From Leeuwenhoekiella sp. MAR_2009_132 (GTDB taxonomy: Bacteria > Bacteroidota > Bacteroidia > Flavobacteriales > Flavobacteriaceae), in assembly GCF_000687915.1 (NCBI RefSeq), contig NZ_JHZY01000002.1, forward strand, positions 1,841,001 through 1,905,000: 64,000 nt of DNA. Reading direction: 5' to 3'. The position numbers and the translations under genes were made by a program. The notes under the pieces are model-generated. The model saw only the letters and a list, made by a program, of their open reading frames with translations, was not told where the DNA came from and searched no databases. Shown in pieces: positions 38,822 to 55,199 of this stretch. How positions within the stretch are numbered: the first letter of the stretch is position 1; each line of letters opens with the position of its first letter.

Positions 38822-38834
38822 TTATTATACTAAT

Positions 38835-39845
38835 TTAGCGTTGTACATCGCCTCCACCAGCGATTAGCTGCTCAACTTCAGCAACACAAGCTCGATTTAA
38901 ATCTCCGGGAATTGTATGCTTTAAAACACAGGCTGCAGTAGCAAACTCTATGGCCTGTTGTAGTGGTAATTCATTTAAGCCATATATTAAACCTGCCATA
39001 AAAGCATCACCACTTCCCACGCGATCTACCACATAATTCACATCATAGTTATTTGCGGTGAGCAGTTGCTCCTTTGTACATAAAATACCTCCTATACGTT
39101 GATGTGATGTATTTATAGATTTACGTAAACTCGTTGCTATATATTCAAGATCGGGACAGGCTTTAAACAGAGGATGATATAGATTAGGTAAGATATCTGT
39201 TTTAGTGTAATCTGGATTTATACGATCTTGCCCCATCATAAAATAAGCCGTGTCAATATCACCCAAAATTACCTTGCTATAGGCTAACAATTGGGGCATA
39301 ACCTTACTCGGCGCTTTCCCGTATTTCCAAAGTTTAGAGCGATAATTAAGATCGCATGAGACGTTAACACCTTTACTTTTAGCTACTTTAAGCGCTTCTA
39401 AAGTTACGTCAGCAGCGTTTTGCGATAACCCAGGTGTCACACCACTCCAATGAAACCAGGTTGCGTTTTCAAAAATTGCATCCCAATCAAATGTACCTGG
39501 TGTAGCGGTTGCCAAAGAACTATTAGCCCGGTCATAAACAACACTGCTAGGTCGTAAACCCGCACCTTGTTCTAAAAAATACACACCCAATCTCTCACCT
39601 CCAATAACACTATAATCTGAGTTAACTTTAAACCGATTAACTTCTTCTAAAGCACTTTTTCCTAAATCGTTATCAGGAAATCGGGAAACAAATTGAGTAT
39701 GCATCCCATAATTAGATAGGGATACTGCAACATTAAATTCGCCTCCACCATAGGTTACTCCCAGTGAACGCGCCTGGCCAAATCGCTCATTATGTTGAGT
39801 AGCAAGGCGCATCATAAGTTCTCCAAAGGTTACAACCCTTTTCAT
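38835..39845 (-). CDS. kdgK: 2-keto-3-deoxygluconate kinase (PfkB family)
   Basis: This 336-residue ribokinase-like protein has the N-terminal GGGEFNVAVSLSNYG substrate loop and the C-terminal PfkB signature DRVGSGDAFMAGLIYGL with the catalytic aspartate. It phosphorylates 2-keto-3-deoxygluconate to KDPG with ATP. The product is the substrate of the aldolase encoded 13 bases downstream, and KDG itself comes from the SDR encoded upstream. That makes the assignment to KDG kinase stronger than family membership alone. Confidence 0.9.
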   Translation of the reverse strand: MKRVVTFGELMMRLATQHNERFGQARSLGVTYGGGEFNVAVSLSNYGMHTQFVSRFPDNDLGKSALEEVNRFKVNSDYSVIGGERLGVYFLEQGAGLRPSSVVYDRANSSLATATPGTFDWDAIFENATWFHWSGVTPGLSQNAADVTLEALKVAKSKGVNVSCDLNYRSKLWKYGKAPSKVMPQLLAYSKVILGDIDTAYFMMGQDRINPDYTKTDILPNLYHPLFKACPDLEYIATSLRKSINTSHQRIGGILCTKEQLLTANNYDVNYVVDRVGSGDAFMAGLIYGLNELPLQQAIEFATAACVLKHTIPGDLNRACVAEVEQLIAGGGDVQR

Positions 39846-39897
39846 AAAGTTTTTTTAATTGAATTGGTGTTAATGCAATTTTTTATAGCTATAAACT

Positions 39898-40659
39898 TTA
39901 GATTCCTAACGCCTGACCACCGCCTATCTGAATGGTTTCTGCTGTAATGAATGCAGCACCTTCACCTGCTAAAAAAGCAACTACTGAAGCCACATCTTCA
40001 GGCTGACCTAATCTTCCTAAAAGAATATTGTTTTTCCATGAAGCAAAAACTTCTGGCTTTGTAGATTTAATTTGAGAATGAAAAGGCGTATCTATCGTTC
40101 CCGGAGAAACAGCATTTACGCGTATACCATATTCCGCTAGATCTTTAGCAAGTGCGCGCGTAATAGCGTGAACTCCTGCTTTAGATGTGCCATACACTCC
40201 CGCGCCAGGCCCACCAGCATTCCAGGCGGCATTAGATGTGTAATTTATAATACTTGCATGCTCTCCTTTTTTAAGAAATGGTATTGCCGCGCGAGATGCA
40301 AAGAAAACTGAATCTAAATTCAGCGCCATGACTGATCTGTAAAACTCTGTAGTCATTTCTTCAAAACGAGATCTTCCGCCCAGGCCACCTGCATTATTTA
40401 CCAGGACATCAATCTTTCCGTATTTTTCTCCTACAGCCTTAATATTTGAAGTTACCTCATCTTCATTAGTAACATCAAAACCATAATATTCTGCTTCTAT
40501 ATTTTCGGCTTTAAGTTCTTGTACACGGGCTGCTCCAGCCTCATCATCAATACCATTTAAGATTATCGTAAAACCATTCTGGCCTAATTTTCTTGCGACT
40601 GCAAACCCGATGCCTCCTGTGGCACCTGTAATTACTGCAACTTTACTTTTTGTACTCAT
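39898..40659 (-). CDS. SDR oxidoreductase, probable DEH reductase of alginate catabolism
   Basis: This 253-residue classical short-chain dehydrogenase has the cofactor motif TGATGGIGFA, NNAGG, the catalytic tyrosine/lysine in YGTSKAG, and a PG motif after VNAVSPGTIDTP. In alginate loci of Flavobacteriia the SDR reduces 4-deoxy-L-erythro-5-hexoseulose uronate (DEH) to 2-keto-3-deoxygluconate with NADH or NADPH. Position between a uronate-type MFS transporter and kdgK fits this role. KduD-like activity on pectin products cannot be excluded from motifs, but no pectinase genes are present. Confidence 0.85.
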   Translation of the reverse strand: MSTKSKVAVITGATGGIGFAVARKLGQNGFTIILNGIDDEAGAARVQELKAENIEAEYYGFDVTNEDEVTSNIKAVGEKYGKIDVLVNNAGGLGGRSRFEEMTTEFYRSVMALNLDSVFFASRAAIPFLKKGEHASIINYTSNAAWNAGGPGAGVYGTSKAGVHAITRALAKDLAEYGIRVNAVSPGTIDTPFHSQIKSTKPEVFASWKNNILLGRLGQPEDVASVVAFLAGEGAAFITAETIQIGGGQALGI

Positions 40660-40683
40660 CCTTGTTATAATTTAATTATCGTA

Positions 40684-41961
40684 TTATTCTATTTCAACCG
40701 GCCTTACCTTTCGTATCAACACTAAAATTGATAAAACCGCCAGTGGTGCTAAAACAGCTATTAATATAAAAGCCGGGGTATAAGATTTTAGGGTTATCTG
40801 CGGAATTAGCCAGTTCATAATAATTACTGAAACTGCGCCTACGCTTCCTGCTAATCCTGCTAATGTACCTACTGAAGGCCCTCTAAATAGATCGCTTGAT
40901 AAGGTTTGGATATTTCCTATTGCAAACTGAAACCCAAACAAAACGATTCCTGTTATGTAGATAAATGACATAGGGCTATCTGGCTGAACAAAGAATATAA
41001 TTCCCAGAAGTCCTAAAAATATCAAAGCACCACCTATGGTTATAGTAATTTTGCGGGCAGCATCTGTGGTTTTAGTTTCCATAAGCTTGCCGCAATACCA
41101 TCCTCCCACAAGACTACCGGCCATACCGCCCAAGTACGAGATCCAGATTGTAGAACCTATTTGTTCAATACTAAAACCGTATTCAGAATGTAAATAAAGT
41201 GGCATCCATCCTACAAATAACCACCAGATAGGCTCAATAAAAAACCGTGCAGATAGCACTCCCCAAGATTCTTTATAGCTCAAGATTTTCATCAAGCTTA
41301 ATCCTTTTTCTCGCTTATCATCTTCATCAAAAACATTTTCCAGGCTTCCCTGAGAGATAAACTTTTTCTCTTCATCGGTAATCCACGGGTGCTTTCTAGG
41401 TTTTGCTTTATTGATGAATAACCAGGGAATAATCCAGATTAGACCCAAAAAACCTATAATTATAAATGTAGTTCTCCAACCAAATTTTCCATATAAAAAA
41501 GCAATTAAAACCGGCGCAATAACACTTCCTAAAGAAGCACCTGCATTAAATATACCTTGAGCTACCGCACGCTGTTTTACCGGAAACCACTCTCCATTAC
41601 TCTTTACCGCTCCTGGCCAATTGCCGGCTTCTCCAAGACCTAATAAAGCTCTAAAAAGTGTTAACGAAACCAGCCCTCGTGCTACCGCGTGAAATACAGA
41701 AGCGATAGACCATACTGCGATAGAAACTACAAATCCCATACGCGTACCTATAATATCGTACAATTTGCCCGAGAGAAATTTACCCGCAGCATACGTGATC
41801 ATAAACACATTTAGCATAATGGCATAATCTGCCTCATCCATCCCCAGGTCTTTCCCCATTTCGGGCCACATCACTCCAAAAGCTGTACGATCTATATAGT
41901 TAATAACTGTTGCTAAACAGATCAACCCAATAACCCACCACCGTAATCCTTTTACTTTCAT
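40684..41961 (-). CDS. MFS transporter, hexuronate/ACS type, probable uronate importer
   Basis: This 425-residue protein has 12 predicted membrane helices and a central charged loop. The family hallmark VINYIDRTAFGVMWPEM lies in the first helix, as in ExuT and other anion:cation symporters. In this locus the natural cargo is unsaturated monouronate or DEH released by the periplasmic PL17 lyase. The gene is 24 bases upstream of the SDR gene. A 151-base gap separates it from the regulator gene and contains a hairpin but no operator palindrome, so it probably depends on readthrough from the regulator promoter. Confidence 0.88.
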   Translation of the reverse strand: MKVKGLRWWVIGLICLATVINYIDRTAFGVMWPEMGKDLGMDEADYAIMLNVFMITYAAGKFLSGKLYDIIGTRMGFVVSIAVWSIASVFHAVARGLVSLTLFRALLGLGEAGNWPGAVKSNGEWFPVKQRAVAQGIFNAGASLGSVIAPVLIAFLYGKFGWRTTFIIIGFLGLIWIIPWLFINKAKPRKHPWITDEEKKFISQGSLENVFDEDDKREKGLSLMKILSYKESWGVLSARFFIEPIWWLFVGWMPLYLHSEYGFSIEQIGSTIWISYLGGMAGSLVGGWYCGKLMETKTTDAARKITITIGGALIFLGLLGIIFFVQPDSPMSFIYITGIVLFGFQFAIGNIQTLSSDLFRGPSVGTLAGLAGSVGAVSVIIMNWLIPQITLKSYTPAFILIAVLAPLAVLSILVLIRKVRPVEIE

Positions 41962-42112: not shown

Positions 42113-42820
42113 CTATAAATCTACATTATAGCAATACTTATACAGGCTTTTAAAATGTATTTTCATAAGCTCTTTACTCCCCTGAACATCTTTATTTTTA
42201 ATTGCTTCAAAAATTGCCTTATGTTCTTCTATACCTCTAAAAGTTTGATCATCATCACAAACGTGATATTTCTCAAAATTGGTTATAATTTCAGGCGTTA
42301 TTATTAGCATAAGTGTATTTAAACTTGAGTTGCCACTGGCTTTAGCTATCGCCAGATGAAAAAGTAAATCTTCCTGAACCGCATCCTCACCTAATAATGC
42401 TTTTTTTGTATATGCATCTAGCGCCTGTTTCATATGTACTAATTGCTCTTCAGTACGGCGCTGTGCTGCTAATCTTACCGTTTTTAACTCTAACAAAATA
42501 CGCGTTTCTACGAGTGACTTAAAATCTGGATCTTCTAGATTAAGTATTTCATTTATCATCCCATTTAACGCTGTTACACCTAGTTGCGCAACAAAGGTTC
42601 CGCTTTGCGGAATAGATTCTAATATACCATAAAACTCTAATGTCTGTATCGCCTCTCTAATCGTACTGCGGCTAACCTCAAATTTTTCTGAAAGCATACG
42701 CTCTGAAGGCAGCTTATCGCCAGGCTCTAAATTCTTATAATTTATATGATCCCGTATTTTTGAAATAATAGCATTACGCAACCCTTTATTATCTGTTTTT
42801 GTTAAAGCTTCTATCTTCAT
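42113..42820 (-). CDS. FadR-subfamily GntR transcriptional regulator of the alginate locus
   Basis: This 235-residue protein has a winged helix at about 15-80 (LEPGDKLPSERMLSEKF, VSRSTIREAIQTLEFYGIL) and a C-terminal FCD domain. The FCD metal/ligand residues are visible: DLLFHLAIAKASGN, and H in RGIEEHKAIFEAIKNKD. This is the UxuR/ExuR/LldR type, which binds sugar acids. Palindromes close to the family consensus TTGGTnnACCAA lie directly upstream of this gene, of susC and of the PL6 gene, so it very probably represses all three and itself. The inducer is likely KDG, DEH or another alginate product, not determined here. Confidence 0.88.
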   Translation of the reverse strand: MKIEALTKTDNKGLRNAIISKIRDHINYKNLEPGDKLPSERMLSEKFEVSRSTIREAIQTLEFYGILESIPQSGTFVAQLGVTALNGMINEILNLEDPDFKSLVETRILLELKTVRLAAQRRTEEQLVHMKQALDAYTKKALLGEDAVQEDLLFHLAIAKASGNSSLNTLMLIITPEIITNFEKYHVCDDDQTFRGIEEHKAIFEAIKNKDVQGSKELMKIHFKSLYKYCYNVDL

Positions 42821-42845: not shown

Positions 42846-42875
42846 CTGGTTTACCAGATTGGTTTATCAAATTTA
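42846..42875 (-). promoter_or_regulatory. Operator pair overlapping the promoter of the GntR-type regulator
   Basis: CTGGTTTACCAG (42846-42857) and TTGGTTTATCAA (42859-42870) have centres 13 bp apart. On the minus strand TAAATTTG (42875-42868) matches the -7 box TAnnTTTG and overlaps the outer palindrome by three bases. The expected start site near 42861 leaves a leader of about 40 bases. The -33 position reads TTTT. Confidence 0.8.
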
Positions 42876-42919
42876 AGGAATTTTATTTTAGTAAAAAAGT
42901 AAAACTTAATCCATTAACC

Positions 42920-42948
42920 TAGCCTCAACTATGCAGTAGATGAGGCTA
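42920..42948 (-). terminator. Hairpin after the PL7 gene, possible terminator
   Basis: TAGCCTCA / TGAGGCTA form an 8-bp stem with a 13-base loop, 58 bases after the PL7 stop. A strong T-run is missing on the minus strand. It may only weakly separate the susC-PL7 transcript from the regulator gene. Confidence 0.4.
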
Positions 42949-43005
42949 AGTACAGGACCTCGAAAACCTAACGAAACTTAAACAAACAATTGACTCTTAA
43001 TACTT

Positions 43006-43908
43006 TTAATGACTTACTTCTAGTTTATAAAACTTAACACTTGCATGTGCTCCCTTGTCACGAGTCTGAAAGTAATTTCCTGCTTTAAAATAATTTTCAA
43101 ACACACCCCATTTTTTAATATTTACGTCATCATAAACAGCAAATTCTGTATTATTTAAACTCACAATCATTTCCCCATCTGAAACTTTAACCTCAATATC
43201 AAACTTTTTAAAACCTACTTCCTGCTCAAAAGTGTGTCCCTCGTCATCTCCCCAGGCCTCTTCATGCAAAATACCTTCTTCTGAAACAGCGGTATTCTTT
43301 AGCACTTTTGTTTTTACCCTAATCTGCCCATTTTGCCAATAAATCTTCAAAATAGGTGGTGCATTATTATCATCCTGACCTATCAATTCTTTTTGAGAAT
43401 TTGTAAGTCTGCCGTGAATTTGAAGAATGATAACCCGATGGTATTTACCTTCATCATCTTTAGTAACATCTTCCATCGCAATACGGGCTTTTAATTTCCC
43501 TCCCTGAGCAAATGTCCAGTTTACATTATCATCGCCAGGTACCATCTGCTCCCGAAGTTCTGATCTGCTGTACTTCGTATTTGCCGTTGTAGCTTCTGAT
43601 GGATATGCGTGAAAAACCAATGCCCCTGCAGTAGAATCATTATACATAAATGGTTTTAAAACCGGATTTGTAGCGTATTTTAAAATGGCAGGTGGCTCAA
43701 CACTAATAGCTCCTCCTTTACCAGAACCTTCGGGGATTGTAACCTTCCAGTGCGATAAATCTATATTGGGTAATTTTACACGATCAACTTCAGCTTGCAC
43801 AACGGTCTCCGCTTCATCTTCAACCATGGGCCCATGTTCCTGAGAGCAGGCTGTAGAAGTAGCAAGTTGCAGCGCAATCGCTACTATACCTAGTTTATTT
43901 ATAAACAT
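43006..43908 (-). CDS. Alginate lyase, polysaccharide lyase family 7, lipoprotein
   Basis: This 300-residue protein has a lipobox-like TSTAC with cysteine 21, so it is probably lipid-anchored, perhaps on the cell surface. All three PL7 blocks are present: SRSELRE at 114-120, QIH at 163-165 and YFKAGNYFQ at 273-281. They hold the Arg, Gln, His and Tyr of the jelly-roll active site. Beta elimination yields unsaturated oligoalginates. The QIH variant is generally linked to activity on G-containing blocks, whereas QVH enzymes prefer M. It is the last gene of the susC-susD-PKD-PL7 transcript, 14 bases after the PKD gene. Confidence 0.93.
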   Translation of the reverse strand: MFINKLGIVAIALQLATSTACSQEHGPMVEDEAETVVQAEVDRVKLPNIDLSHWKVTIPEGSGKGGAISVEPPAILKYATNPVLKPFMYNDSTAGALVFHAYPSEATTANTKYSRSELREQMVPGDDNVNWTFAQGGKLKARIAMEDVTKDDEGKYHRVIILQIHGRLTNSQKELIGQDDNNAPPILKIYWQNGQIRVKTKVLKNTAVSEEGILHEEAWGDDEGHTFEQEVGFKKFDIEVKVSDGEMIVSLNNTEFAVYDDVNIKKWGVFENYFKAGNYFQTRDKGAHASVKFYKLEVSH

Positions 43909-43922
43909 TATTTTTATTTTTA

Positions 43923-44795
43923 TTATTCCGCAGGTATTATAGATACATCATCTAAATACGATTCACTTGCATTTGCACCTGAATCAAATAGAATAGAAAT
44001 ATTACCGTTTGCTCCAGTTTCAAATTCAACAATAAGTCGATTAAAATTACCCTTACCATCGTTAGTTGTCCCAGCTGTCTGTCCCAGTTGAGGAGCGTTA
44101 GCAAACTCACTAAAATTATTTAATTGACCATCTATTACGGTAGCTCGTACGCTATCACCGTCTGATTGAATAGCATAATACGCCGTTAAAATATATTTTG
44201 TATTTGCAGAAACAGTTACTGCCTGGTAAGAAACCCGTGGACTATTGGAACTTGCAGTTGTAAATTTTGCACCACGTGTACCATTACGCCCATCAGAGGT
44301 AGTTTGATGTATACTGCCACCACTAATTCTCCAGCAATCTCTACTGTCTCCAGTACCGCAAATACCGGCTGCATCTTGAAATTCTGCAGCACCTATTTCT
44401 GGAGTTATAGCTGTAGGAACTGGTGGTTCTACAATTGTAATTTCTGTCGTAAAAGTATCTGTTTTACCAAGCGCGTCTGAAGCGGTTAAAGACACCGTGT
44501 AAGTACCTTCATCTGGATAGGTATTTATAGCATCACGCGTATTAGCTGTATTACCATCCCCAAAGTCCCAGGCATAAGTAGTTGCGCTTCCTGAAAAATT
44601 TGCAAAACTATAGGTCAAAAAATCAGTATCACTTTGTGAGGCTGTAAAATTAGCCTCTGGTGGTGTAAGATCTTCTATAGAACCTTCTTCTGGCAAGTCA
44701 TATTCAAAATCGCAAGCAATTAAACTGAATATCATACAAGCTGAAAACAAGAACTTAAAAAAATGTAAACCGGCTATTTGTTTTATCGTGTTCAT
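43923..44795 (-). CDS. PKD-domain surface lipoprotein, probable alginate-binding protein
   Basis: This 290-residue protein has a signal peptide ending in SLIAC (cysteine 28). A PKD domain spans about 45-130, with the typical core YAWDFGDGNTANT and GTYTVSLTASD. A C-terminal jelly-roll domain at about 145-290 resembles carbohydrate-binding modules (SGGSIHQTTSDGRNGTRGAKF, ending SESYLDDVSIIPAE). It has the position and layout of a SusE/SusF-like surface glycan-binding protein, after susD and before the PL7 gene. The binding domain is inferred. No catalytic residues were seen. Confidence 0.82.
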   Translation of the reverse strand: MNTIKQIAGLHFFKFLFSACMIFSLIACDFEYDLPEEGSIEDLTPPEANFTASQSDTDFLTYSFANFSGSATTYAWDFGDGNTANTRDAINTYPDEGTYTVSLTASDALGKTDTFTTEITIVEPPVPTAITPEIGAAEFQDAAGICGTGDSRDCWRISGGSIHQTTSDGRNGTRGAKFTTASSNSPRVSYQAVTVSANTKYILTAYYAIQSDGDSVRATVIDGQLNNFSEFANAPQLGQTAGTTNDGKGNFNRLIVEFETGANGNISILFDSGANASESYLDDVSIIPAE

Positions 44796-44814
44796 CGTAA
44801 TTGTTTTTTAATTT

Positions 44815-46236
44815 TTAGTAACCCGGGTTTTGAGTCATCACACCATTACTTAGGTTAATTTCTCGTTGTGGTATAGGCAATAACAAATCTGTTGCATTAA
44901 AGCTGTATCCATTTACATCTGAAAAAGCAGATAGCACTTCTTGTGCTACGCCAAAACGTACCAGATCAAAAAAGCGCTGATTCTCAAATGCTAATTCTAC
45001 TCTTCGCTCTGCCAGCAAATCTTCTTTTGTAATTGTAGTTATAGGAGTTGTAAGTCCTGCTCTGTCTCTTACCTTTTGAAATGAATTTAACGCAGCTGTT
45101 GCTGAAGTTTGTTGACCTCCTGCCAAGATTGCTTCTACGTGCATAAGCAATACATCTGCGTAACGAATAACAATCCAGTCATTACCGGCAAGTTCAGGAT
45201 TACTTGCGGTAGCCGCAATGCCTAAATTTGCATCGCCGTTAGGGATATATTTTGCTACCTGATATTGTGTAGGCTGTGCAGCATCTTGTCTATAGGAGTA
45301 GAGCGTTCTGTTGCCTCCTAAATTGTCTAAAACTTCGCGAGCATCTGAAGTTACATAGTTGACCCCGCTGGTGCGTCCTACAGAATTTAACCATTCTGCA
45401 GAAATATTTTGACTGTCTGATGTAAGATCTGATGTATAACCTACAGCAAATATGACTTCATTATTATCTTCAGTATAAAAAACATCTTTAAAATTAGGCT
45501 CAAGACTAAAACTACCAGACATAACGCTCTCGAGTAAGGTTTGCGCTTCTGAGTAGTTAGAACCTTGTGTTAAGTAAACTTTTGCAAGTAAAGCCTGAGC
45601 CGCAGCTTTTGATGCTCTGTTTCTATAGGTATTATCTAAACCTGCAACAGCAGTCTGTAAATCTGTAACAATTAAATCATAAATACTGCTGGTTGCTACA
45701 CGTGTAAAAGCGATCTCACGCTCTAATGGTCCTGTAAGTCTATCTATTAGCGGAATATCGCCATACAAACGTACCAGGTTAAAATAAGCATACGCTCTTA
45801 CAAACTTTGCTTCAGCTTCAAAAGCAGGAGCTTTATCTGCTGATGCCGCTTCAAGACTAGATAACACCAGATTTGCTCTATAAATAATCTCGTAAAAGCT
45901 ATTGTAATAATTACTTACAATACCGTTACTGGGAGTTACCGTATAACTCTCAAACTGTGCTGCCTCACCTTCACTCGATTTAGTGCGGGTATTATCGCTG
46001 CGCATTTCAGTTAAGTAATATTCTCTTTGAATACTAAAGTTTTCATCAAGATCATTTGAATTGACACCTTGTATCGCATCATACATACCAATAACACCGG
46101 TTAGTATCTCATCGTCATTTTTAAAATAACCCTCTGAAGATACCGCAGATTCAGGTAAAGGCTCCAGAAAATCTTCTCCGCAGGAAACCATGATCCCGGT
46201 AAGAAGCAGTACAATAATTGGAAATACTTTTTTCAT
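44815..46236 (-). CDS. SusD-like alginate-oligosaccharide-binding lipoprotein
   Basis: I place the start at the ATG at 46234-46236. This gives 473 residues, a proper signal peptide and the lipobox GIMVSC (cysteine 19). The open frame reaches 46332, but that would overlap susC by 68 bases. SusD/RagB features are FEAEAKFVRAYAYFNLVRLYGDIPL near residues 125-150 and the C-terminal ELAFENQRFFDLVRFG. It captures alginate oligosaccharides at the cell surface and closes over the SusC channel. It starts 28 bases after the susC stop, in the same transcript as the PKD and PL7 genes. Confidence 0.92.
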   Translation of the reverse strand: MKKVFPIIVLLLTGIMVSCGEDFLEPLPESAVSSEGYFKNDDEILTGVIGMYDAIQGVNSNDLDENFSIQREYYLTEMRSDNTRTKSSEGEAAQFESYTVTPSNGIVSNYYNSFYEIIYRANLVLSSLEAASADKAPAFEAEAKFVRAYAYFNLVRLYGDIPLIDRLTGPLEREIAFTRVATSSIYDLIVTDLQTAVAGLDNTYRNRASKAAAQALLAKVYLTQGSNYSEAQTLLESVMSGSFSLEPNFKDVFYTEDNNEVIFAVGYTSDLTSDSQNISAEWLNSVGRTSGVNYVTSDAREVLDNLGGNRTLYSYRQDAAQPTQYQVAKYIPNGDANLGIAATASNPELAGNDWIVIRYADVLLMHVEAILAGGQQTSATAALNSFQKVRDRAGLTTPITTITKEDLLAERRVELAFENQRFFDLVRFGVAQEVLSAFSDVNGYSFNATDLLLPIPQREINLSNGVMTQNPGY

Positions 46237-46264
46237 AATTATGTTCGTTTTGCTTTTCATATTC

Positions 46265-49200
46265 TTAAAAATCAGCATTAATACCAAAAGATATAGTTCT
46301 GAATATAGGTGAACCACCACGCTGATAACCATAGGTTGTAGGTGATGTATCGTCTATTGATTCTGGATTAAAACCGGTATAATTATCTGCTGTCAAATAC
46401 ATAAGATTTTGTCCTGCAGCATACACTCTAAATCCTGTTAATCCTACTTTTGAAGTTAGTGTCTTGGGGAAGTTGTACCCAAGATTCACATTACGCAAAG
46501 CGATATAAGATGCATCCTGAACAATAGAATTAGTAAAGATTTTTTCTTTAATAAAGCCCTGATTAGGCGTAGTTTGTACATTAAAATCCTGACCGCTGTT
46601 AAAGTGGTTAAAAATGTATTGATCTCCCATATTACGCACTTCTGCACCGTGGCTTCCTTGAAATAAGAAACTTATATCTACATTTCCTATTTTAAAATCA
46701 TTAGAAATACTCCATACTAAATCTGGATACGGGCTACCTAATATCGTTTTATCATCATCATCAATTAAACCATCACCATTTAAATCTTTTACATACACGT
46801 CCTGCGCCTGCCCACCTATTGGAAAATATGGTTGTTGTAAGTTTTCTAAAGCAATCTCTTCATCTACCACCCAACCATAAAATGAAGATATAGGTTGACC
46901 TTCCAGGTTTATCCATTCTGAAGCCCGTTTGTCATCTGTTATCTGAATTTGACCATTAGAATCTGCAAAGTCAGTTAATTCATTATCATTCATTGAGGCT
47001 AAAATTGTAGTGCTCCACTGAAATTTTGGTGTTGAAATGTTGCGAGTACGCAGCTCAATCTCGATACCACTGTTTACAACCTCTCCTATATTTACAAGTG
47101 CATTTCTAAAACCTGTTGTTGAACTTACAGGATTAAATAATAGCAATTGATCACTAGTACGCTTGTAATAATCTACAGATCCAGTAATGCGATTGTTTAA
47201 AAAGCCAAAATCAACACCAGGATTGTATTCTCTAGAACGCTCCCATTGTAAATCTGGGTTAGCAATGTTAAGCGCAATATATGCTGCTTGCAAACTACCA
47301 TCTATAGTTGCCGAAGAAGGTCCTAATAAAGGTAATGATGGGTATAAATCTATAATATCACTCCCAGTATCTAAATCTTTGTTTCCGGTAAAACCATAAC
47401 TAAATCTAAACTTAAGGGTACTCAGTGTATTACTTTCTTTTAAGAAATCTTCCTGCGCAATATCCCAACCTACAGACACTGCAGGGAAATCACCGTATTT
47501 ATTATCTGAACCAAAAACTGAACTACCATCTCTACGGAAACTTAATGAAGCTAAATACTTGTTAGCATATGCATAATTTACTCTGGCAAAATAAGACTGA
47601 AAACGCTCAGCAAATTTATAGGAGTCAATATCTGTTAACACAGTTGCCGCTGTTAAGGTGCGTATTAAATCTGAAGTGTAACCCGTACCTAATGAACTTT
47701 CTCCTGAATAATCCCATTTTTCAAAAGCGATACCTGCAAGCACATCAAACTCGTGCTCTCCAATCTCTTTATTGTATGTTAAATAACTTTCTGAAGCGAT
47801 GTGAATTTGCGTTTCATTAGATACTTCATAACTCGCATCTGCAGCACCGTTTCTACTGGATAAAACACCTTGCCATCTGTCACGTTTTGTACTTTGATAA
47901 TCTCCAGAAAGTGTACTTCTCAATTTTAGATTGTCATAAATCTCATACTCTCCGTAAAAGTTTCCGTTAAGTTTAAATTTATAATCATTTCGGTCACGCT
48001 CGATAACTTTTGCTGCCGGGTTTGTATTTGAAGTATCACTAATGTCAATCAATGTTCCGTTACCAAATAAATCGTAATTATCAAAATGTCTTTGCACAGC
48101 ATAATCACCTATCTGAACATCAGGATAAACTGAACGATCTACGTATTGTATAGTATTTGCATCATGATATACAGGTAACCAGGCCGGCTGGCGTAATATA
48201 TCGTGAGTAGACCCATCAAACCTACGTGTATTTGTATATGAAGGTGCCAGGTTACCTCCTATTTTAAATTTATTGCTAACTTTAGAATCTAACTTTAGAC
48301 GTAAGTTATAACGCTTATAATCGTCTGTTAATAGCACACCCTCATCGTGTAAATATCCTAATGAGATGCTAAACTTTGTATTCTCGTTACCTCCACGGGC
48401 GCTAAGTGAATGGTTTTCGATCATACCACCATCAAATATGATGTCTTGCCAGTCTCTGTCTATACCTATTTGCTGTATGTACTGCGTTCTGTTAGACAAG
48501 CTTCCTGTAGCAGCTAATTCTGCCGCAGCAGTCTTTGCTACAGAAAAGTAATAGGCATCACTCTGTCTCGCTTCTTTAAACCCGGTATATCCCTGGTAAC
48601 TGAATACAGTTTTACCTTCTTTACCTTGTTTTGTAGTAATTAGAATTACACCATTACCTCCACGAGAACCATATATAGCAGCAGATGCAGCATCCTTTAA
48701 TACATCAAAAGATTCTACCTCGCTCATATCTAAACTCCCTAAAAAGTCATTATCTACAACTAGACCATCTACAACAATCAACGGGTCTGAACTCCCGGTA
48801 AGTGATCCTGTACCTCTAATACGTATTGTAGGCGCAGAACCAGCTTCTCCATTAGTCGCCTGTACGTTAACACCAGATATTTGACCTACTAATGCATCAT
48901 CTACACGTGAAACCGGCAATTGATCCAGATCTTCATTTACCACACTCGACACCGCACCGGTTAAGTGACTCTTTTTACGTGTACCATAACCTACCACAAC
49001 GACCTCGTCTAGGTTTTGAGCATCATCAGATAATGACACATTTAATTCTTCTTTTCCCGCAACCGATAACGTTTGCGTAACAAAGCCAACATAAGAAAAT
49101 ATAAGTTTTGAATCACTAGAAACCGTAATTTCATAATTACCATCAAAATCTGTCACTACGCCAGAGGTAGTTCCTAACACCAAAACATTTACTCCCGGTA

Positions 49201-49318
49201 TGGGACTATTGTCTGATGCAGCTGTTACTGTACCGCGTATTGTATAATTCTCCTGTGCAATTAATAGAAACTGACAGAGAAACATAATAAACACAGTCGT
49301 TATAGTTTTAACATTCAT
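46265..49318 (-). CDS. SusC-like TonB-dependent transporter for alginate oligosaccharides
   Basis: This 1017-residue protein has a signal peptide ending near LLIAQ at 22. A CarboxypepD_reg-like domain follows at about 25-105, then the plug with the SusC signature SFDVLKDAASAAIYGSRGGNGVILITTK at about 205-235. The rest is an outer-membrane barrel to the terminal GINADF. It imports oligoalginate made by the surface lyases into the periplasm. Its promoter carries three tandem operator palindromes (49385-49422) overlapping a TATATTTG box, so expression should be tightly controlled by the GntR-type regulator encoded 6 kb downstream. Confidence 0.94.
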   Translation of the reverse strand: MNVKTITTVFIMFLCQFLLIAQENYTIRGTVTAASDNSPIPGVNVLVLGTTSGVVTDFDGNYEITVSSDSKLIFSYVGFVTQTLSVAGKEELNVSLSDDAQNLDEVVVVGYGTRKKSHLTGAVSSVVNEDLDQLPVSRVDDALVGQISGVNVQATNGEAGSAPTIRIRGTGSLTGSSDPLIVVDGLVVDNDFLGSLDMSEVESFDVLKDAASAAIYGSRGGNGVILITTKQGKEGKTVFSYQGYTGFKEARQSDAYYFSVAKTAAAELAATGSLSNRTQYIQQIGIDRDWQDIIFDGGMIENHSLSARGGNENTKFSISLGYLHDEGVLLTDDYKRYNLRLKLDSKVSNKFKIGGNLAPSYTNTRRFDGSTHDILRQPAWLPVYHDANTIQYVDRSVYPDVQIGDYAVQRHFDNYDLFGNGTLIDISDTSNTNPAAKVIERDRNDYKFKLNGNFYGEYEIYDNLKLRSTLSGDYQSTKRDRWQGVLSSRNGAADASYEVSNETQIHIASESYLTYNKEIGEHEFDVLAGIAFEKWDYSGESSLGTGYTSDLIRTLTAATVLTDIDSYKFAERFQSYFARVNYAYANKYLASLSFRRDGSSVFGSDNKYGDFPAVSVGWDIAQEDFLKESNTLSTLKFRFSYGFTGNKDLDTGSDIIDLYPSLPLLGPSSATIDGSLQAAYIALNIANPDLQWERSREYNPGVDFGFLNNRITGSVDYYKRTSDQLLLFNPVSSTTGFRNALVNIGEVVNSGIEIELRTRNISTPKFQWSTTILASMNDNELTDFADSNGQIQITDDKRASEWINLEGQPISSFYGWVVDEEIALENLQQPYFPIGGQAQDVYVKDLNGDGLIDDDDKTILGSPYPDLVWSISNDFKIGNVDISFLFQGSHGAEVRNMGDQYIFNHFNSGQDFNVQTTPNQGFIKEKIFTNSIVQDASYIALRNVNLGYNFPKTLTSKVGLTGFRVYAAGQNLMYLTADNYTGFNPESIDDTSPTTYGYQRGGSPIFRTISFGINADF

Positions 49319-49384
49319 ACGAAAAAAGGTTTATTCTTTTAATTTATTACTACTTGAAAGTATGATGTAAATCTCACACTTATA

Positions 49385-49427
49385 TTGGTATTCCAAACTG
49401 GTTTACCAATTTGGTTTTCCAAATATA
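49385..49427 (-). promoter_or_regulatory. Triple operator array overlapping the alginate susC promoter
   Basis: Three 12-bp palindromes lie at exactly 13-bp spacing: TTGGTATTCCAA (49385-49396), CTGGTTTACCAA (49398-49409) and TTGGTTTTCCAA (49411-49422). On the minus strand TATATTTG (49427-49420) is the -7 box and overlaps the outermost palindrome by three bases. The start site near 49413 would lie inside the array and leave a leader of about 95 bases. The -33 position reads TTTT. Confidence 0.85.
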
Positions 49428-49512
49428 TACAATATAAAACCATAAAAAAAAATTAATAATGTTAAAATAGTTGTTGATTATTAATTTATTATACTGTGAA
49501 TTATTGATTCAT

Positions 49513-49549
49513 AATAAAAGTGGCTGTCTTTTAATAAGACAGCCACTTT
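49513..49549 (-). terminator. Intrinsic terminator after kdgF
   Basis: A perfect 14-bp stem, AAAGTGGCTGTCTT / AAGACAGCCACTTT, has a 5-base loop and is followed on the minus strand by TTTTATTATG. It separates the PL6-PL17-kdgF transcript from the susC promoter. Confidence 0.85.
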
Positions 49550-49607
49550 GAGCCAATTCTTTTTAGAGTCCAGATCTATAATTAATTTTGATATTTATAC
49601 TGAAATA

Positions 49608-49952
49608 TTACATAAAATCCTCACGTATGGGACTAAATACATCTATAAGCATACCATCTTCTGTACATAAAGCGCCGTGCAATACATGTGGTGGAATATA
49701 AAATGAATCTCCGCTTTTCAAAGTCTTTGTCTCCCCTCCTATCGTAACATCAAAACTCCCCTTCACGACATAAGTAACTTGTGCGTGATGATGCTCGTGC
49801 ATAGGACCAATACTTCCTTTTTTAAAATCTACCTGTACCATCATTATTGTGTCGTCGTATCCTTTAATTTTGCGTTTTACTCCATCGCCCACAGTTTCCC
49901 AGGCGATCTCATCTCCTAATAAAAATTCTTTACTTGCTCCAAATGTTTTCAT
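49608..49952 (-). CDS. kdgF: KdgF-like cupin, uronate-linearising enzyme
   Basis: From the ATG at 49950-49952 the protein has 114 residues. The frame is open to 49991, but that start would overlap the PL17 gene by 29 bases. A single cupin domain shows the metal-binding motif MHEHHHAQVTYVVKGSF and the second histidine in IPPHVLHGA, with IGGE between the strands. KdgF converts the cyclic unsaturated monouronate released by lyases to linear DEH. It follows the PL17 exolyase gene by 10 bases, the expected pairing. It is cytoplasmic, having no signal peptide. Confidence 0.9.
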   Translation of the reverse strand: MKTFGASKEFLLGDEIAWETVGDGVKRKIKGYDDTIMMVQVDFKKGSIGPMHEHHHAQVTYVVKGSFDVTIGGETKTLKSGDSFYIPPHVLHGALCTEDGMLIDVFSPIREDFM

Positions 49953-49962
49953 TGTATTCTTT

Positions 49963-52230
49963 TTATCGATTTGTAAAATAATACGGTCCATCCCAAGTAT
50001 ATGTGGTTCCGTTAAGTGTTAATTTGTGTTTTTCTTGAGTGCTAGACTTTAGATTTGCAATGATTAATATATACGATGAATCGTTAATCAAATCTACTTT
50101 TACAGCTGTATATGCTTCAGTATCTACTACTATATCAATATTTTTTACGGCAGATTCTGTATTTTCAGCTCTTTCATTTACCGTATTGTAAGTACCGTGT
50201 GATTCTAATATATTAACGAAGAGCGTGTTTTTGACTTTAGCTTTTCGAAACAAAATACCCGCTTCTCTTCTAAGATTAAATTCTGGATCGTTAGCACCCT
50301 GTCTTACAAATAATATGCTATCTCCTACAGTAGTTTTACTACTCAAAGTATAAAATAAATCTTTGTTAAGCCACGTAATCTGTGTGAACTCTGTATCTGC
50401 TTTTGCCGTGGCTTCTTTCCAAAGATGCTGATATCCATTTGAAAGACCTAGAGGTTCAAGGTTGTTCTCTGCACTGGGTTTTATTGAAATGTCTATAAGC
50501 TGACCCTTATAGTAAAAAGGTAAATCATATTGATTTTCTACATCAGCCTGTACTTTTAATATATCGAGAAGTAGTGGCTTTGAGTTATTTTTCTGTGGAA
50601 GCATTGCCAGTGTACGCTGCATTGCAGTTCCCGGGTATGCGTTATTTTCTTTAGCGCTTACAATTTGTAGATTGTCATTATTTATGTCTTGAAAATAAAG
50701 CTCAGAATGGTACTCACTACCGGTTTTGAAGTCACCGTTATAGTGAGAGACTTCATTTTGAACAAGCGTATTATGGGCGATAGTCTGTTTTGCCCAGGTG
50801 GTGTTCTCTTTTAAGTAACCACCGCCATTCTTTGCGTTTATATTTACAAAACGCGCTAATCCATAATCGGGTAAAACCTCATACCCATTCTCATAAACAG
50901 AATAGGAGAGTTTATCGTAATGCCCATGACTGTTACCTTGCGCGCTGTATTTAAATACCAGTTCTAGATCACTTCCTGGCTTAGAACGCAAAATAGTAAG
51001 GCCTCCCTGTTTTCCGTCAGGACCATCTGTTAAACTGAGTGATTTTTTCTTGAAAGGCTCAATCTCCTGTTCTTTTAAAGCAAAAGCAACTGCGAGTCCT
51101 GCGTCATCTAAGGTTACTTCGTTTTGTGTTTTTGCAAGGGCAAGTAGTTGCCTATCCTGATGCCCATAATGATATGCGATATCAACACTATTTATTAATG
51201 CTGAGTTGTAATAAGACATCCCTTTCTGGGCATCGTTTAGCGGAAAAAAATCACCGTTTGAGTCGGTTAAATTTAATAATGCATAAACCGCCTTAAGCTG
51301 CACATTATCTTTATACTGTAACACTTCTAGTTGCGGTAATGTATTTTCTAGAGCTGCTGAAAAGGCCAAAAAGGGATACATCGCATATCGCTGATAATAG
51401 GGACCTTCTGTATAATAACCATCTGGCGAAAAAGCTTCTTCAATATTTGCTAAAAACCCCGCATCCTGACCAGGCTTCTTTATTAGCCCACCATCATTAT
51501 CTACAGCATTTTCATCAATGCTGTCTTCGGGCAATCCATAAAGTGCATAATTAATTAATTCACTATCGCGCATTGCGAGTCCCATCATACCTACTGCGGC
51601 ATTTCCCCATGTACTGTGATTGTGTATGCGATTAAAAAATTGGGGATTTTCTACTGAAAGAAACATTGCAAAAGGTCTAAATAATTGACGCTCCAATTTC
51701 TTTCGATCTTTTGGAGATAACCAGTCGTAAATTGCATCATACGCCTGGCTCATATTTACAAGCCAATTTGCATCGTTAAGACATTGCCAAAATAATTTAC
51801 CTCTTGAGTACGATCGTGTTTCAGGATGTAAGGGTAATGTGGGATATATGCGTGCATATTCCATAAAAACCGCTTTGATATAATTAGCATACTTTTCATC
51901 ACCATAAATCTGAAATAAAACACCCGCTTTCTGCAACACTACATAATTCTCTTTGTGTTGCATATGCGTATAACCGCCGGCCATATCTTTAGGAACAGGA
52001 ACTTCTATTTTCTGGCTTAGTATAGAATCTATTTCTCTTTTTGTTTGTTCTAGCGTATTATCAAAAAGCGGTAAGCTCCCCAAATTAGCTTTTATTGCAG
52101 ACAGACCTTCTTTTGAAATTAGCAACCCGTGATGCTCTTTATCTTTAAAGGTATAAGATTGTTTATTCTGCTGACTAAAAGCGGTGCAAAAAAAACACAA
52201 TAGCAAAACGTGTAAAAATATTTTATTCAT
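49963..52230 (-). CDS. Oligoalginate lyase, polysaccharide lyase family 17
   Basis: This 755-residue protein has a signal peptide (MNKIFLHVLLLCFFCTAFSQ, cut near residue 19), so it is periplasmic or outer-membrane associated. An alpha/alpha toroid at about 30-390 is followed by a heparinase II/III-like beta sandwich. PL17 active-site elements are seen: RIHNHSTWG (Asn and His), GPYYQRYAMYPF (Tyr) and the metal-site region SAQGNSHGHYDKLS. PL17 enzymes are exolytic and release unsaturated monouronate from oligoalginate. The gene follows a decayed lyase-like gene and precedes kdgF. The region upstream holds no promoter, so it probably depends on the PL6 promoter. Confidence 0.93.
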   Translation of the reverse strand: MNKIFLHVLLLCFFCTAFSQQNKQSYTFKDKEHHGLLISKEGLSAIKANLGSLPLFDNTLEQTKREIDSILSQKIEVPVPKDMAGGYTHMQHKENYVVLQKAGVLFQIYGDEKYANYIKAVFMEYARIYPTLPLHPETRSYSRGKLFWQCLNDANWLVNMSQAYDAIYDWLSPKDRKKLERQLFRPFAMFLSVENPQFFNRIHNHSTWGNAAVGMMGLAMRDSELINYALYGLPEDSIDENAVDNDGGLIKKPGQDAGFLANIEEAFSPDGYYTEGPYYQRYAMYPFLAFSAALENTLPQLEVLQYKDNVQLKAVYALLNLTDSNGDFFPLNDAQKGMSYYNSALINSVDIAYHYGHQDRQLLALAKTQNEVTLDDAGLAVAFALKEQEIEPFKKKSLSLTDGPDGKQGGLTILRSKPGSDLELVFKYSAQGNSHGHYDKLSYSVYENGYEVLPDYGLARFVNINAKNGGGYLKENTTWAKQTIAHNTLVQNEVSHYNGDFKTGSEYHSELYFQDINNDNLQIVSAKENNAYPGTAMQRTLAMLPQKNNSKPLLLDILKVQADVENQYDLPFYYKGQLIDISIKPSAENNLEPLGLSNGYQHLWKEATAKADTEFTQITWLNKDLFYTLSSKTTVGDSILFVRQGANDPEFNLRREAGILFRKAKVKNTLFVNILESHGTYNTVNERAENTESAVKNIDIVVDTEAYTAVKVDLINDSSYILIIANLKSSTQEKHKLTLNGTTYTWDGPYYFTNR

Positions 52231-52234
52231 AATC

Positions 52235-52822
52235 TTAATATTGTTTTGTCAAATCAATGCTATAGGATGCTCCCATATCTAGCGTTTTGATTTGAGAAGC
52301 TTTGGTATCAGCTAAACTTTTGTGTATTTGCAACCCGTTTAACAAACGGTACCCAGTTTAAATTCTTTATAAGTGCCATTACCACTCTCTAGAGTTTTAA
52401 ATTCATTGTTAAACCATTTTATGCTGACGTCCTAAATGTCTTAAAGCATAAACATCTACTGCTTCTCCATTTTTATAATTAAAGGGTAATTTCCTCTTAG
52501 TCCTACTTTCATATTTACTTTGATGATCGAGAGCTCTAGCGTGGTGAGCAGCTTCCACATCATATAGAGAAGTATAGTTTGCAAAACGTTTATCATTATT
52601 ATGCCAGTCGTAAAAAAAATCTTTAGAAAACTGCACTCTGTAAAAGGCAGCTAGCTCTGCTACAGATATATTTTTAGAAGTATCGTCAAGCGTATCTCTA
52701 ATAGTGGTCTTTAAAAATTGCAGAAGTTCTTCAATATCAAGAACCCGATTTTCAGGAATATGCTGGCCTAAAATTTCCTGCGGAAAAGAACCAATTATTA
52801 AAAAGAGAAGTATATAACGCAT
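52235..52822 (-). pseudogene. Remnant of a secreted lyase-like protein (probable heparinase II/III type) with internal deletion
   Basis: Positions 52822-52409 encode a 137-residue N-terminus with a signal peptide (ending EILGQ) and a helical region (DFFYDWHNNDKRFANYTSL, LPFNYKNGEAVDVYALRHLG). It stops right after QHKMV. One base out of frame, the sequence continues as WFNNEFKTLESGNGTYKEFK and, in a third frame, as LQIHKSLADTKASQIKTLD ending at 52235. This reads as the beginning and end of a longer protein joined by a large deletion, plus small frameshifts. From memory the N-terminus resembles secreted heparinase II/III-superfamily lyases. That is a recollection, not a search. It sits between PL6 and PL17. 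Confidence 0.65.
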
Positions 52823-52831
52823 AGCCCCTAT

Positions 52832-55141
52832 TTAATACATTAATTTTTGCTCCAGATTTTCTACAATCTTAAAATCTCCAGAATTTATAACGGTATTATC
52901 TACCGGTTTTTGTCCTTTCTCGCCCCATAGAATCGCTATAAATTCTACCGAATTGTTTTTAAATACATTCTTAGATATTGTTACGTGTACAATACCCCTA
53001 TTTTTAATAAGCAGCTTTGCCTCATCAGATTTACCCGATTGTTTAATCGTATTTTTTGTAAAAATTAAGTTCCCGCCAATGGTTGACTCGTCGTACCCTC
53101 CTCTATAATAATCAATCACAGATTCAGAAATATTTTCAAAATTTGAATCTTCAATTATCACAAATTCTGCATTATACTCACCCGTATCATCTTTTTCCTG
53201 AGCGATTTGAATACCATTCTCAAAATTTAAAAAACTTGAATTATGTATTTGAATCGTGTCTGCAAATGAAGATTTTGATGTTTTTAAAATAGATTTAAAG
53301 TTCTCTAGTTTAGAATTTTTGATAAGTACATTATATGCACTAGACATATTTGTATCTAATGTACGTATCGCGTCCTGCTTATAAGTACCTGTAATAGACA
53401 ATCCATCAAGTATTAGGTTACCGTTAGGATGCATTCTAAATGCCGGATTCTCCCCTGAGTTAAAATTAAGTCGCACCAGACTTCCCGCCTTTTTCGCCTT
53501 AAAAGTTAATTTCTTATCAATGTCGAGCGATTCGGTACACGTGTAATCTCCTTTTTCTAAAAGAAATAATGAACCAGACTCTGCATCTTTTATTGCTTGT
53601 ATAAGATCTTTAGCATTAGAAATTGAAATAGGTTTTAAATTTTTATTCCCCTTTACCGGTTTAAACCAATCTGCCCCATATTGTGAATAATCAACTAATG
53701 GCACATCTGTTTCAGCTGAATTTATAACGGCACCAGCTTGTTTAAGATTTTCTCTAGAATTACCAAATAAATCTGTTTGTATAATTTCAAAATCAAAACC
53801 CTTATACACATCATCAAACTTTTCTTTGGGTGTATAGAAATAATCGCCTTTTTTTTCAATCGTTATCGTAGCAAGATCAATTCCGGAAGTTTTTAATGTG
53901 TTTTTAATATTTTCATTGAAATAGTTATTCTCAAATTTAACTCCGTCGATAGAATCATATAATTTTAAAATAGGTATTTGCTCCTCACTATAAATCAAAT
54001 TATTAGCCAGTAGCATACGTTCTGCTCGTGCAGACCTAATCTCAGAAGCAGGCAAAACCTCTCGCTGATCTATGTTTGAGCCTACTCCAAAATTCCACGG
54101 AGTACCACAATACATCCAGGTATTGTAAGCCACAACTACATCGGTCACTTGATTATAACGATTGAGTGGAGATTTAGGAATACCATTCATTACTGCGAGT
54201 GGAGCTCTAAACTCTTCTCCTTTTAATTTATAGAAATAATTATTAGTAATCCAATGCCCTGTATTTATAACGCGAATCCCGCCAATGTTTTCTGAATTAT
54301 CGTTACCTATAAAAACATTAGCATCTATTGTAGCATAGTTTCCGTGGCGCAAAACTAACGAACCTTCAGATTCAAAAAATACATTGTTTGAGAATGTATT
54401 AAAGTTAGATTTACTTGAAATAATTTCTACCTCCCCATTACATCGATCAAAAAGATTATTAGAGACATTTGTATACGATGGGGTCATTGAAGTATAACTA
54501 TCTCCTATTTGTAAGGTCTCTCCGTGAGGGCCACCCTTTCTGGGGCGCGGTCCAAAATGATTATTTACAATCTGATGTCTGTTCTTTATGTGTTCGTTTC
54601 CTTTTAGAAAAACTCGTATAGTAGGACCTGTGTTTGATTTACCAGCGATATAACATTGCTTTAAAGTATTATTACGACCCCAGAATTCTACCCAATGATC
54701 ATCTGCGTCTCTATCTGGCTGGGTAAAATTTTCAATAACACAGTTAATTACTTTAGAGTTATTGGCAATCAAATCATCAGAAATTTTAAACTGAATAACT
54801 GAATTTTTAGGAGTATACCCATCCTTAAAGTATAACCCATCAACTATTAAATAATTACCTCCTAATTTTAAATACGAAGTTCCCGTTATAAAAACCTCTC
54901 CTGCTTTTTCAGCTTTTAAAACGATAGGCTTATCTACTGTACCCTCTCCTTTAAATTCTAATTGCAAATTTTCCCACCTACCATTTTTCATCACAATGAC
55001 AGAGCCAGGCTGAGAATTATCTATAGCTGCCTGAAGTTCTTTTATATTAGAAACTAATGTTTCTTTCTGGTAAGCAGCAGCGTACTCAGAATTAAAAACT
55101 AGTGCAAGTAACAATATTAAAAAATAAAATAGTTTGCTCAT
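52832..55141 (-). CDS. Alginate lyase, polysaccharide lyase family 6 (chondroitinase-B fold)
   Basis: I choose the ATG at 55139-55141 (769 residues). The upstream ATG at 55171 lies before the predicted transcription start and inside the operator. The signal peptide ends near AAAYQ. The N-terminal right-handed beta helix spans about 25-420 and carries the PL6 catalytic pair: the lysine in EVEIISSKSNFNTFSNN and the arginine in SLVLRHGN. A second, smaller parallel beta helix follows at about 510-760, giving a two-domain layout known from larger PL6 enzymes. It is the first gene of the PL6-pseudogene-PL17-kdgF transcript and probably starts endolytic or exolytic cutting at the cell surface or periplasm. 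Confidence 0.92.
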   Translation of the reverse strand: MSKLFYFLILLLALVFNSEYAAAYQKETLVSNIKELQAAIDNSQPGSVIVMKNGRWENLQLEFKGEGTVDKPIVLKAEKAGEVFITGTSYLKLGGNYLIVDGLYFKDGYTPKNSVIQFKISDDLIANNSKVINCVIENFTQPDRDADDHWVEFWGRNNTLKQCYIAGKSNTGPTIRVFLKGNEHIKNRHQIVNNHFGPRPRKGGPHGETLQIGDSYTSMTPSYTNVSNNLFDRCNGEVEIISSKSNFNTFSNNVFFESEGSLVLRHGNYATIDANVFIGNDNSENIGGIRVINTGHWITNNYFYKLKGEEFRAPLAVMNGIPKSPLNRYNQVTDVVVAYNTWMYCGTPWNFGVGSNIDQREVLPASEIRSARAERMLLANNLIYSEEQIPILKLYDSIDGVKFENNYFNENIKNTLKTSGIDLATITIEKKGDYFYTPKEKFDDVYKGFDFEIIQTDLFGNSRENLKQAGAVINSAETDVPLVDYSQYGADWFKPVKGNKNLKPISISNAKDLIQAIKDAESGSLFLLEKGDYTCTESLDIDKKLTFKAKKAGSLVRLNFNSGENPAFRMHPNGNLILDGLSITGTYKQDAIRTLDTNMSSAYNVLIKNSKLENFKSILKTSKSSFADTIQIHNSSFLNFENGIQIAQEKDDTGEYNAEFVIIEDSNFENISESVIDYYRGGYDESTIGGNLIFTKNTIKQSGKSDEAKLLIKNRGIVHVTISKNVFKNNSVEFIAILWGEKGQKPVDNTVINSGDFKIVENLEQKLMY

Positions 55142-55146
55142 ATTTA

Positions 55147-55199
55147 TTGGTTTACCAAATTGGTTTACCAAATATATGTATATTTACGCATACCTCAAA
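55147..55199 (-). promoter_or_regulatory. Operator pair and consensus promoter of the PL6 operon, divergent control region
   Basis: Two identical palindromes TTGGTTTACCAA lie at 55147-55158 and 55160-55171, 13 bp apart. On the minus strand TTTG (55199-55196), 19 bases, then TATATTTG (55176-55169) is a full Bacteroidota consensus promoter. The -7 box overlaps the outer palindrome by three bases. The start site near 55162 leaves about 20 bases before the PL6 ATG. The same pair probably controls the divergent rraA-fbp genes, for which TATATTTA at 55179-55186 is a weak -7 candidate. Confidence 0.85.

Follow-up and report, generated by a model that had tools for sequence, protein, structure and literature searches.

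The closest described counterpart of the system treated here is the alginate regulator AusR of Zobellia galactanivorans, reportedly the subject of Dudek et al. 2020. We compare it with an alginate locus of Leeuwenhoekiella sp. MAR_2009_132, a seaweed-degrading marine bacterium whose genome of 4,281,274 bases is called the resident genome below. In this locus, groups of 12-bp palindromes stand at the three minus-strand promoters under which the alginate genes lie, those of a regulator gene, a susC-like gene and a PL6-type lyase gene; the window, meaning the whole 64,000-nucleotide stretch analysed, spans C2:1841001-1905000. In the available excerpts of the literature, AusR is a GntR repressor of most alginate genes (PMC8286568, PMC8073546) that binds promoters at operators present once, twice or three times (PMC7874173), and degradation products act as effectors that prevent its binding to DNA (PMC8286568). 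The resident system is similar in having a GntR gene inside an alginate locus that also encodes lyases and SusC/D, in its alginate targets and in its multi-copy operators, whereas these excerpts give no 13-bp pitch, no register of operator to -7 box and no family-wide count. The sites, their pitch and register, the target genes and the co-occurrence with the regulator gene can all be read from the DNA. We interpret the palindromes as very probable operators at which an alginate repressor of the AusR type would block RNA polymerase, one dimer sitting on a half-site shared with the -7 element and others further downstream.

Other described systems share single features with this locus. According to the accessible part of PMC8012715, three FCD-type dimers of Escherichia coli NanR sit side by side near the promoter on (GGTATA)3, and this cooperativity needs a 32-residue N-terminal extension. 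UxuR and other FadR-subfamily regulators use operators with TKGT/ACMA boxes and a 2-nt centre, in a set that, as far as the excerpt goes, includes no Bacteroidetes regulator (PMC4494728); the assignment of the present motif to the sites of this subfamily, made when the DNA was first read from sequence alone (the sequence-only reading), fits that consensus. On the promoter side, PMC4306948 predicts the -33 (TTG) and -7 (TAnnTTTG) elements of Flavobacterium in the alginate cluster of strain UMI-01 (Flavobacterium sp.). That cluster shares its promoter consensus with the one studied here and resembles it in kind, GntR-like genes included; an operator overlapping the box is not described in the portion of that paper available.

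The window contains seven TTGGTnnACCAA-like palindromes, also close to TTGGTTTACCAA, all of which have 0-2 mismatches to TTGGTNNACCAA. They form groups of 2, 3 and 2 copies in which every step is 13 bp, just as the sequence-only reading had it, and so match the single, double or triple operators of AusR at the level of sequence. The regulator promoter has copy 2 (CTGGTTTACCAG) at 42846..42857 and copy 1 (TTGGTTTATCAA) at 42859..42870; the susC promoter has copy 3 (TTGGTATTCCAA) at 49385..49396, copy 2 (CTGGTTTACCAA) at 49398..49409 and copy 1 (TTGGTTTTCCAA) at 49411..49422, all five spelled on the plus strand; and the PL6 promoter has two copies of TTGGTTTACCAA, copy 2 at 55147..55158 and copy 1 at 55160..55171, each range opening with the plus-strand start of its palindrome. 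On the transcribed minus strand, a TAnnTTTG box lies at each group, reading TAAATTTG in the regulator promoter (42868..42875) and TATATTTG in both the susC (49420..49427) and PL6 (55169..55176) promoters, and each time its final TTG is the start of the outermost palindrome, copy 1, so that the overlap of exactly three bases noted earlier is borne out in all three groups. By its consensus, this box would be the -7 element. This assignment is supported by a TTG 19 nt before the TA of the box at PL6, although at susC and at the regulator gene TTT stands in that place.

Pairs of sites at 13-bp pitch number 4 in the window, whereas first-order Markov simulations (100 sequences, each of 64 kb) gave 0. 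No enrichment is seen for single sites, either in the window (271 at no more than 3 mismatches versus a shuffle mean of 294.8) or genome-wide (108 at no more than 1 mismatch versus 163 for the reversed control), and it is thus the arrays, not the single sites, that stand out from the background. A genome scan for 13-bp pairs had been proposed as a check, and in the whole resident genome the pair pattern at no more than 1 mismatch matches at these three alginate promoters only; at 2 mismatches it matches at 8 scattered places, and the reversed control gives 5+5 matches. The lone perfect single site beyond the locus, at C4:158536, falls within a coding frame and was set aside. Single sites phased to the box were also tried as a predictor in the resident genome and are unusable because the reversed control gives more matches (63+67 versus 41+49).

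The 13-bp pitch is kept among relatives. For this comparison we used the best 80 of 455 confirmed loci encoding relatives of the regulator, 71-93% identical to it (that of L. aequorea being 93% identical), and these loci are not independent of one another. Among site pairs no more than 60 bp apart at no more than 1 mismatch, 109 are spaced by 13 bp, 33 by 26, 1 by 33, 1 by 39 and 0 by any other distance, and the reversed motif gives no pairs within 60 bp in the same loci at that threshold. When up to 2 mismatches are allowed, the counts are 159 at 13 bp, 63 at 26 bp and 0-7 at each other distance; the reversed motif then gives 16 pairs at 13 bp, 13 of them inside arrays, whose junctions resemble the reversed motif. 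Altogether 104 arrays occur across 75 of the 80 loci, comprising 50 with two copies, 49 with three and 5 with four. One genome of Kriegella aquimaris has two regulator loci (L065 and L066), each situated at the end of a different contig; in both, a two-copy array precedes a PL6-type gene.

The arrays also travel with the regulator gene. Of 299 Flavobacteriaceae genomes, 77 contain the exact 13-bp pair pattern and 74 the regulator (presence being scored at an E-value of at most 1e-40), such that an array is found in 74/74 regulator-positive versus 3/225 regulator-negative genomes, with the reversed control found in 4 genomes. Within the 74 regulator-positive genomes there are 502 matches at 13 bp, and the remaining pitches between 10 and 24 together account for 78, palindromic matches being scored on both strands. 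The only other genome of the same genus in the draw, G144, has neither the regulator at this threshold nor the pattern, which points to the locus having been lost or gained as a unit inside the genus. Among 295 genomes drawn from the class, 7 have the regulator, 11 have arrays and 3 have both (G000, G567 and G382); the other 8 array genomes are no more than background, the reversed control being found in 6 genomes, and arrays are absent from four genomes whose regulator is 45-51% identical.

The register of box to array is likewise kept. TAnnTTTG starts 5 nt before the array (register -5), on the regulator's strand, in 96 of the 104 arrays, as compared with a mean of 6.7 and a maximum of 17 of 104 when the 80 upstream bases are shuffled in 2000 rounds. 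The sequence-only reading had spoken of a fixed geometry, and pitch and register do stand up in the related loci to this extent; the geometry is not invariant, as 8/104 arrays are off register and 29 of the 40 two-site promoters of regulator genes read TAnnTTTA. Three susC arrays (L077:519, L098:4918 and L120:3101) have TAnnTTTG at register on both ends, as if bidirectional. Four arrays at PL17-type promoters (L068:2031, L112:438, L113:340 and L126:1205) read TATATTGG, with the TA one base nearer, a minor variant of the register. Among 95 related promoters, a set selected for having the box, an upstream TTG occurs at 19 nt in 32, the next commonest spacing occurring in 2, and T occupies the first two places of this TTG position in 92.

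A sample found by the motif itself gives a similar picture. This set takes from each genome the place listed first, which gives 30 loci, many of them near the regulator; of its 28 loci in regulator-positive family genomes, 25 show the box, always on a single strand. Those without it are L167, just before a PL7-like frame, L168, before a PL6-like frame (both named from their translations), and a third, L169. In the class draw, G567 has the box in 3/3 arrays. Regulator-negative genomes have the box in 0/10 array matches, though four visible ends alone begin TTG; this comparison is weak because those four ends alone could have shown a box.

The genes behind the arrays point to a single alginate regulon. 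Relatives of window proteins follow 95 of the 104 arrays (SusC 71, AusR 9, PL17 6, PL6 5, PL7 3, MFS 1); among the 9 remaining, the target at L096 is an Alginate_lyase2 (PL7-type) protein by scan, five more share its N-terminal motif, and three are without assignment. Together with the regulator's domains and the target genes in the window, these counts are consistent with the earlier proposal of one alginate regulon under a GntR/FCD regulator. Nor do the same arrays precede many unrelated genes, either in the resident genome or among the relatives, which had been named beforehand as an outcome that would speak against the proposal. Ten of the 27 first genes behind motif-found arrays were scanned, giving two SusC-like, two PL6-type, two PL7-type and one MFS (major facilitator superfamily) gene, the rest being one shikimate-kinase-like, one Nramp-like and one with a secretion tail only. 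The Nramp-like transporter frame lies 287 nt behind a two-copy array with a box (L150, G099:C1:6755), an odd target for an alginate regulator.

Copy number differs with the type of gene. The susC promoter was singled out at the start as having the most copies, and this extends from the three copies in the window to the relatives, where at least 3 copies occur in 52 of 71 susC arrays versus 2 of 33 others, 31 of these 33 having two copies (Fisher 6e-11, on relatives that are not independent). An earlier version of this test, which omitted 11 arrays without a unique box, gave 47/65 susC arrays versus 4/28 (Fisher 2e-7).

The bases shared by box and operator behave differently from the others. 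Copy 1 opens with T in 103/104 arrays, as opposed to T in 62, C in 41 and G in 1 for copy 2, so that the copy doubling as the box has lost a freedom of base that copy 2 retains. In the three-copy susC arrays (44 including that of the window), copy 1 is nearest the consensus, with a mean of 0.45 mismatches versus 1.11 and 1.09. The promoters of regulator genes show another pattern. In the 80 loci, 40 of them are two-site and 24 were scored as single-site (two of which, L051 and L087, are truly two-copy). Nearly all of the two-site promoters (39/40) keep TAnnTTT[A/G] at register, 29 with A, and 25 of those have the half-site TTAAC; in nine two-copy regulator arrays, copy 1 is poorer than copy 2 (1.33 versus 1.00 mean mismatches). 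At the regulator's own promoter, promoter and operator match are thus often weakened together at the shared bases.

In the mechanism we propose, a GntR/FCD dimer would bind each 12-bp palindrome. Slot 1 would coincide in part with the -7 element, the TTG of TAnnTTTG being provided by the half-site TTGGT of that slot, and therefore a bound repressor and the sigma factor could not both use those bases. Slots 2 and beyond, at 13-bp steps downstream over the start region, would extend or strengthen the block, and intermediates of alginate breakdown would release the repressor, as reported for Zobellia AusR. Repression may be graded, with susC promoters usually having at least 3 slots, the others two, and the regulator's own promoter often a weakened version. 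Steps of 13 bp correspond arithmetically to 1.24 turns of B-DNA, which places neighbours about 86 degrees apart and slots 1 and 3 on nearly opposite faces, and half-sites in an array alternate at 7 and 6 bp. By analogy, NanR shows that FCD-type dimers can pack cooperatively on close repeats, via an extension that the resident regulator lacks. More tentatively, it is possible that AusR-type repressors nucleate at the -7 half-site and stack cooperatively on a 13-bp lattice without the NanR arm, that evolution has tuned the strength of repression through the number of slots, and that the merger at slot 1 couples promoter strength to operator strength.

We weighed this operator interpretation against several others. 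A roadblock, in which the regulator sits over the start region and halts an already-bound polymerase while the -7 overlap is incidental, would suit the fact that every array extends for the most part beyond the box, into the expected transcribed region, and that some regulator promoters keep one site only, with 17 boxes starting 18 or 19 nt before that site, which is the position of slot 2. The overlap is constrained, however, because the register is kept in 96/104 arrays and copy 1 loses the C that copy 2 is allowed, and we consider a pure roadblock unlikely. Inheritance of pitch and register from one ancestral promoter, or repeat slippage, with no functional constraint, draws on the relatedness of the 80 loci and their regulators. 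Against it, the pitch is constant although the susC arrays stand anywhere between 28 and 319 nt from the ATG (65 distances with 46 distinct values), the same geometry precedes susC, PL6, PL7, PL17, MFS and regulator genes, and agreement at the four inner positions is no higher between copies of one array than between copies from different arrays (2.90 versus 2.90). Slippage or descent alone is disfavoured by the varying distance and the equal inner-position agreement, and we regard it as improbable.

That some other regulator binds the sites, the neighbouring GntR gene not being the factor, is a reading left room by the fact that the GntR protein's assignment to them is drawn from sequence; it has to contend with the 74/74 versus 3/225 co-occurrence of array and GntR gene and with the AusR literature, as far as the excerpts go, and is in our view very improbable. 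Hardly credible is a role of the repeats as RNA hairpins in the leader, rather than as DNA operators, even though the arrays are palindromic and in or near the expected leader. A loop of 2 nt would be too tight for a hairpin. Across 249 sites, dyad positions 5/8 are consensus in 174, with 1 compensated and 74 uncompensated changes, and positions 1/12 show 10 changes with compensation and 92 without; we rejected the hairpin on these mostly uncompensated changes.

Several observations weigh against the repressor-at-the-box interpretation itself. Eight of the 104 arrays have no box at register, four of them before PL17-type genes, two before PL7-type genes, one before susC and one without gene assignment, and 16 of the 80 regulator promoters have no site at no more than 2 mismatches within 90 nt. 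In G382, which belongs to another family and has a 54% identical regulator, the box is found in 0/2 arrays. The wording of PMC7874173 also differs on the effector, whose complex is described in the available text as 'enhancing transcriptional inhibition', a passage garbled on this point. For the resident organism the operator model rests on sequence, and orthology to AusR on the family of the regulator, its gene neighbourhood and the number of operator copies. The two G382 arrays, L205 and L211, are 0.3 kb away from the regulator gene on its 3' side and precede a SusC-like frame; 13-bp arrays without the register are a hint that the pitch may be older than its merger with the box.

The sequence-only reading had held the arrayed arrangement to be the unusual part, which did not hold, because Zobellia AusR is reported with single, double or triple operator copies (excerpt of PMC7874173) and arrays are therefore not new in kind. 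What would be added to the known AusR, as judged from the DNA, is the exact spacing and position kept across many related bacteria. Among the papers listed by the literature searches, none was on the 13-bp pitch and box-register geometry; we do not claim it as unpublished. A repressor model from a single species would in this way become a family-wide geometric rule, with a pitch of 13, a box register of -5 and a slot number that goes with gene type, which should help to locate alginate regulons from sequence. The geometry also allows sharp predictions on spacing mutants, on repression strength and on the coupling of promoter and operator at the shared bases.

The regulator itself is encoded at 42113..42820 on the minus strand, like all the genes described below, as an AusR-like protein of 235 aa. 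Its Pfam domains, a GntR DNA-binding domain (PF00392, residues 15-77) and an FCD domain (PF07729, residues 103-224), both above cut-off, place it in the FadR/FCD subfamily of the GntR family, and its best PDB relatives are GntR/FCD proteins, both by sequence and by Foldseek (TM about 0.5) on a predicted model (mean predicted local distance difference test score 82.8, predicted template modelling score 0.60, with low confidence in the first nine residues). With the curated NCBIfam models its scores stayed far below the cut-offs, at 73 bits for UxuR (cut-off 442), 67.6 for ExuR (396), 113.3 for LldR (311) and 111.9 for NanR (260). We take it to be most likely an orthologue of AusR. Like NanR, it is an FCD-type GntR protein with closely spaced predicted operator repeats near the promoter, whereas the NanR repeats in the excerpt are short GGTATA units and the resident copies are full 12-bp palindromes. 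An extension of 32 residues as in NanR was not found, the GntR domain starting at residue 15 and profile position 12 aligning with NanR residue 30.

Downstream of the three-copy array lies the susC-like gene (46265..49318, 1017 aa), which is followed by genes for a susD-like protein (44815-46332), a PKD protein (43923-44795) and a PL7-type lyase (43006-43908). The PL6-type lyase gene (Chondroitinase B family, 52832..55141), whose ATG is 5 nt past its two-copy array, is followed by a 137-aa reading frame (52409-52822) in which the Pfam scan found no match, a PL17-type lyase gene (49963-52230) and a cupin gene (49608-49991). These features were taken from the open reading frames and Pfam, and a Pfam search of the whole resident genome places its sole PL7-type and sole PL6-type genes at this locus. 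The two gene series probably form operons, with limits drawn from gene order and strand. Window positions 49517-49549, in the gap that separates the cupin gene from the susC promoter, hold a long and perfect inverted repeat, made up of AAAGTGGCTGTCTT and the complement of this sequence; it is not listed by the terminator scan. After the regulator, and probably co-transcribed with it, genes at 38153..41961 were named by NCBIfam as an MFS transporter, a short-chain dehydrogenase/reductase (SDR) enzyme, a PfkB-type (2-keto-3-deoxygluconate, KDG) kinase and a 2-keto-3-deoxy-6-phosphogluconate (KDPG) aldolase, with the aldolase alone exceeding its equivalog cut-off.

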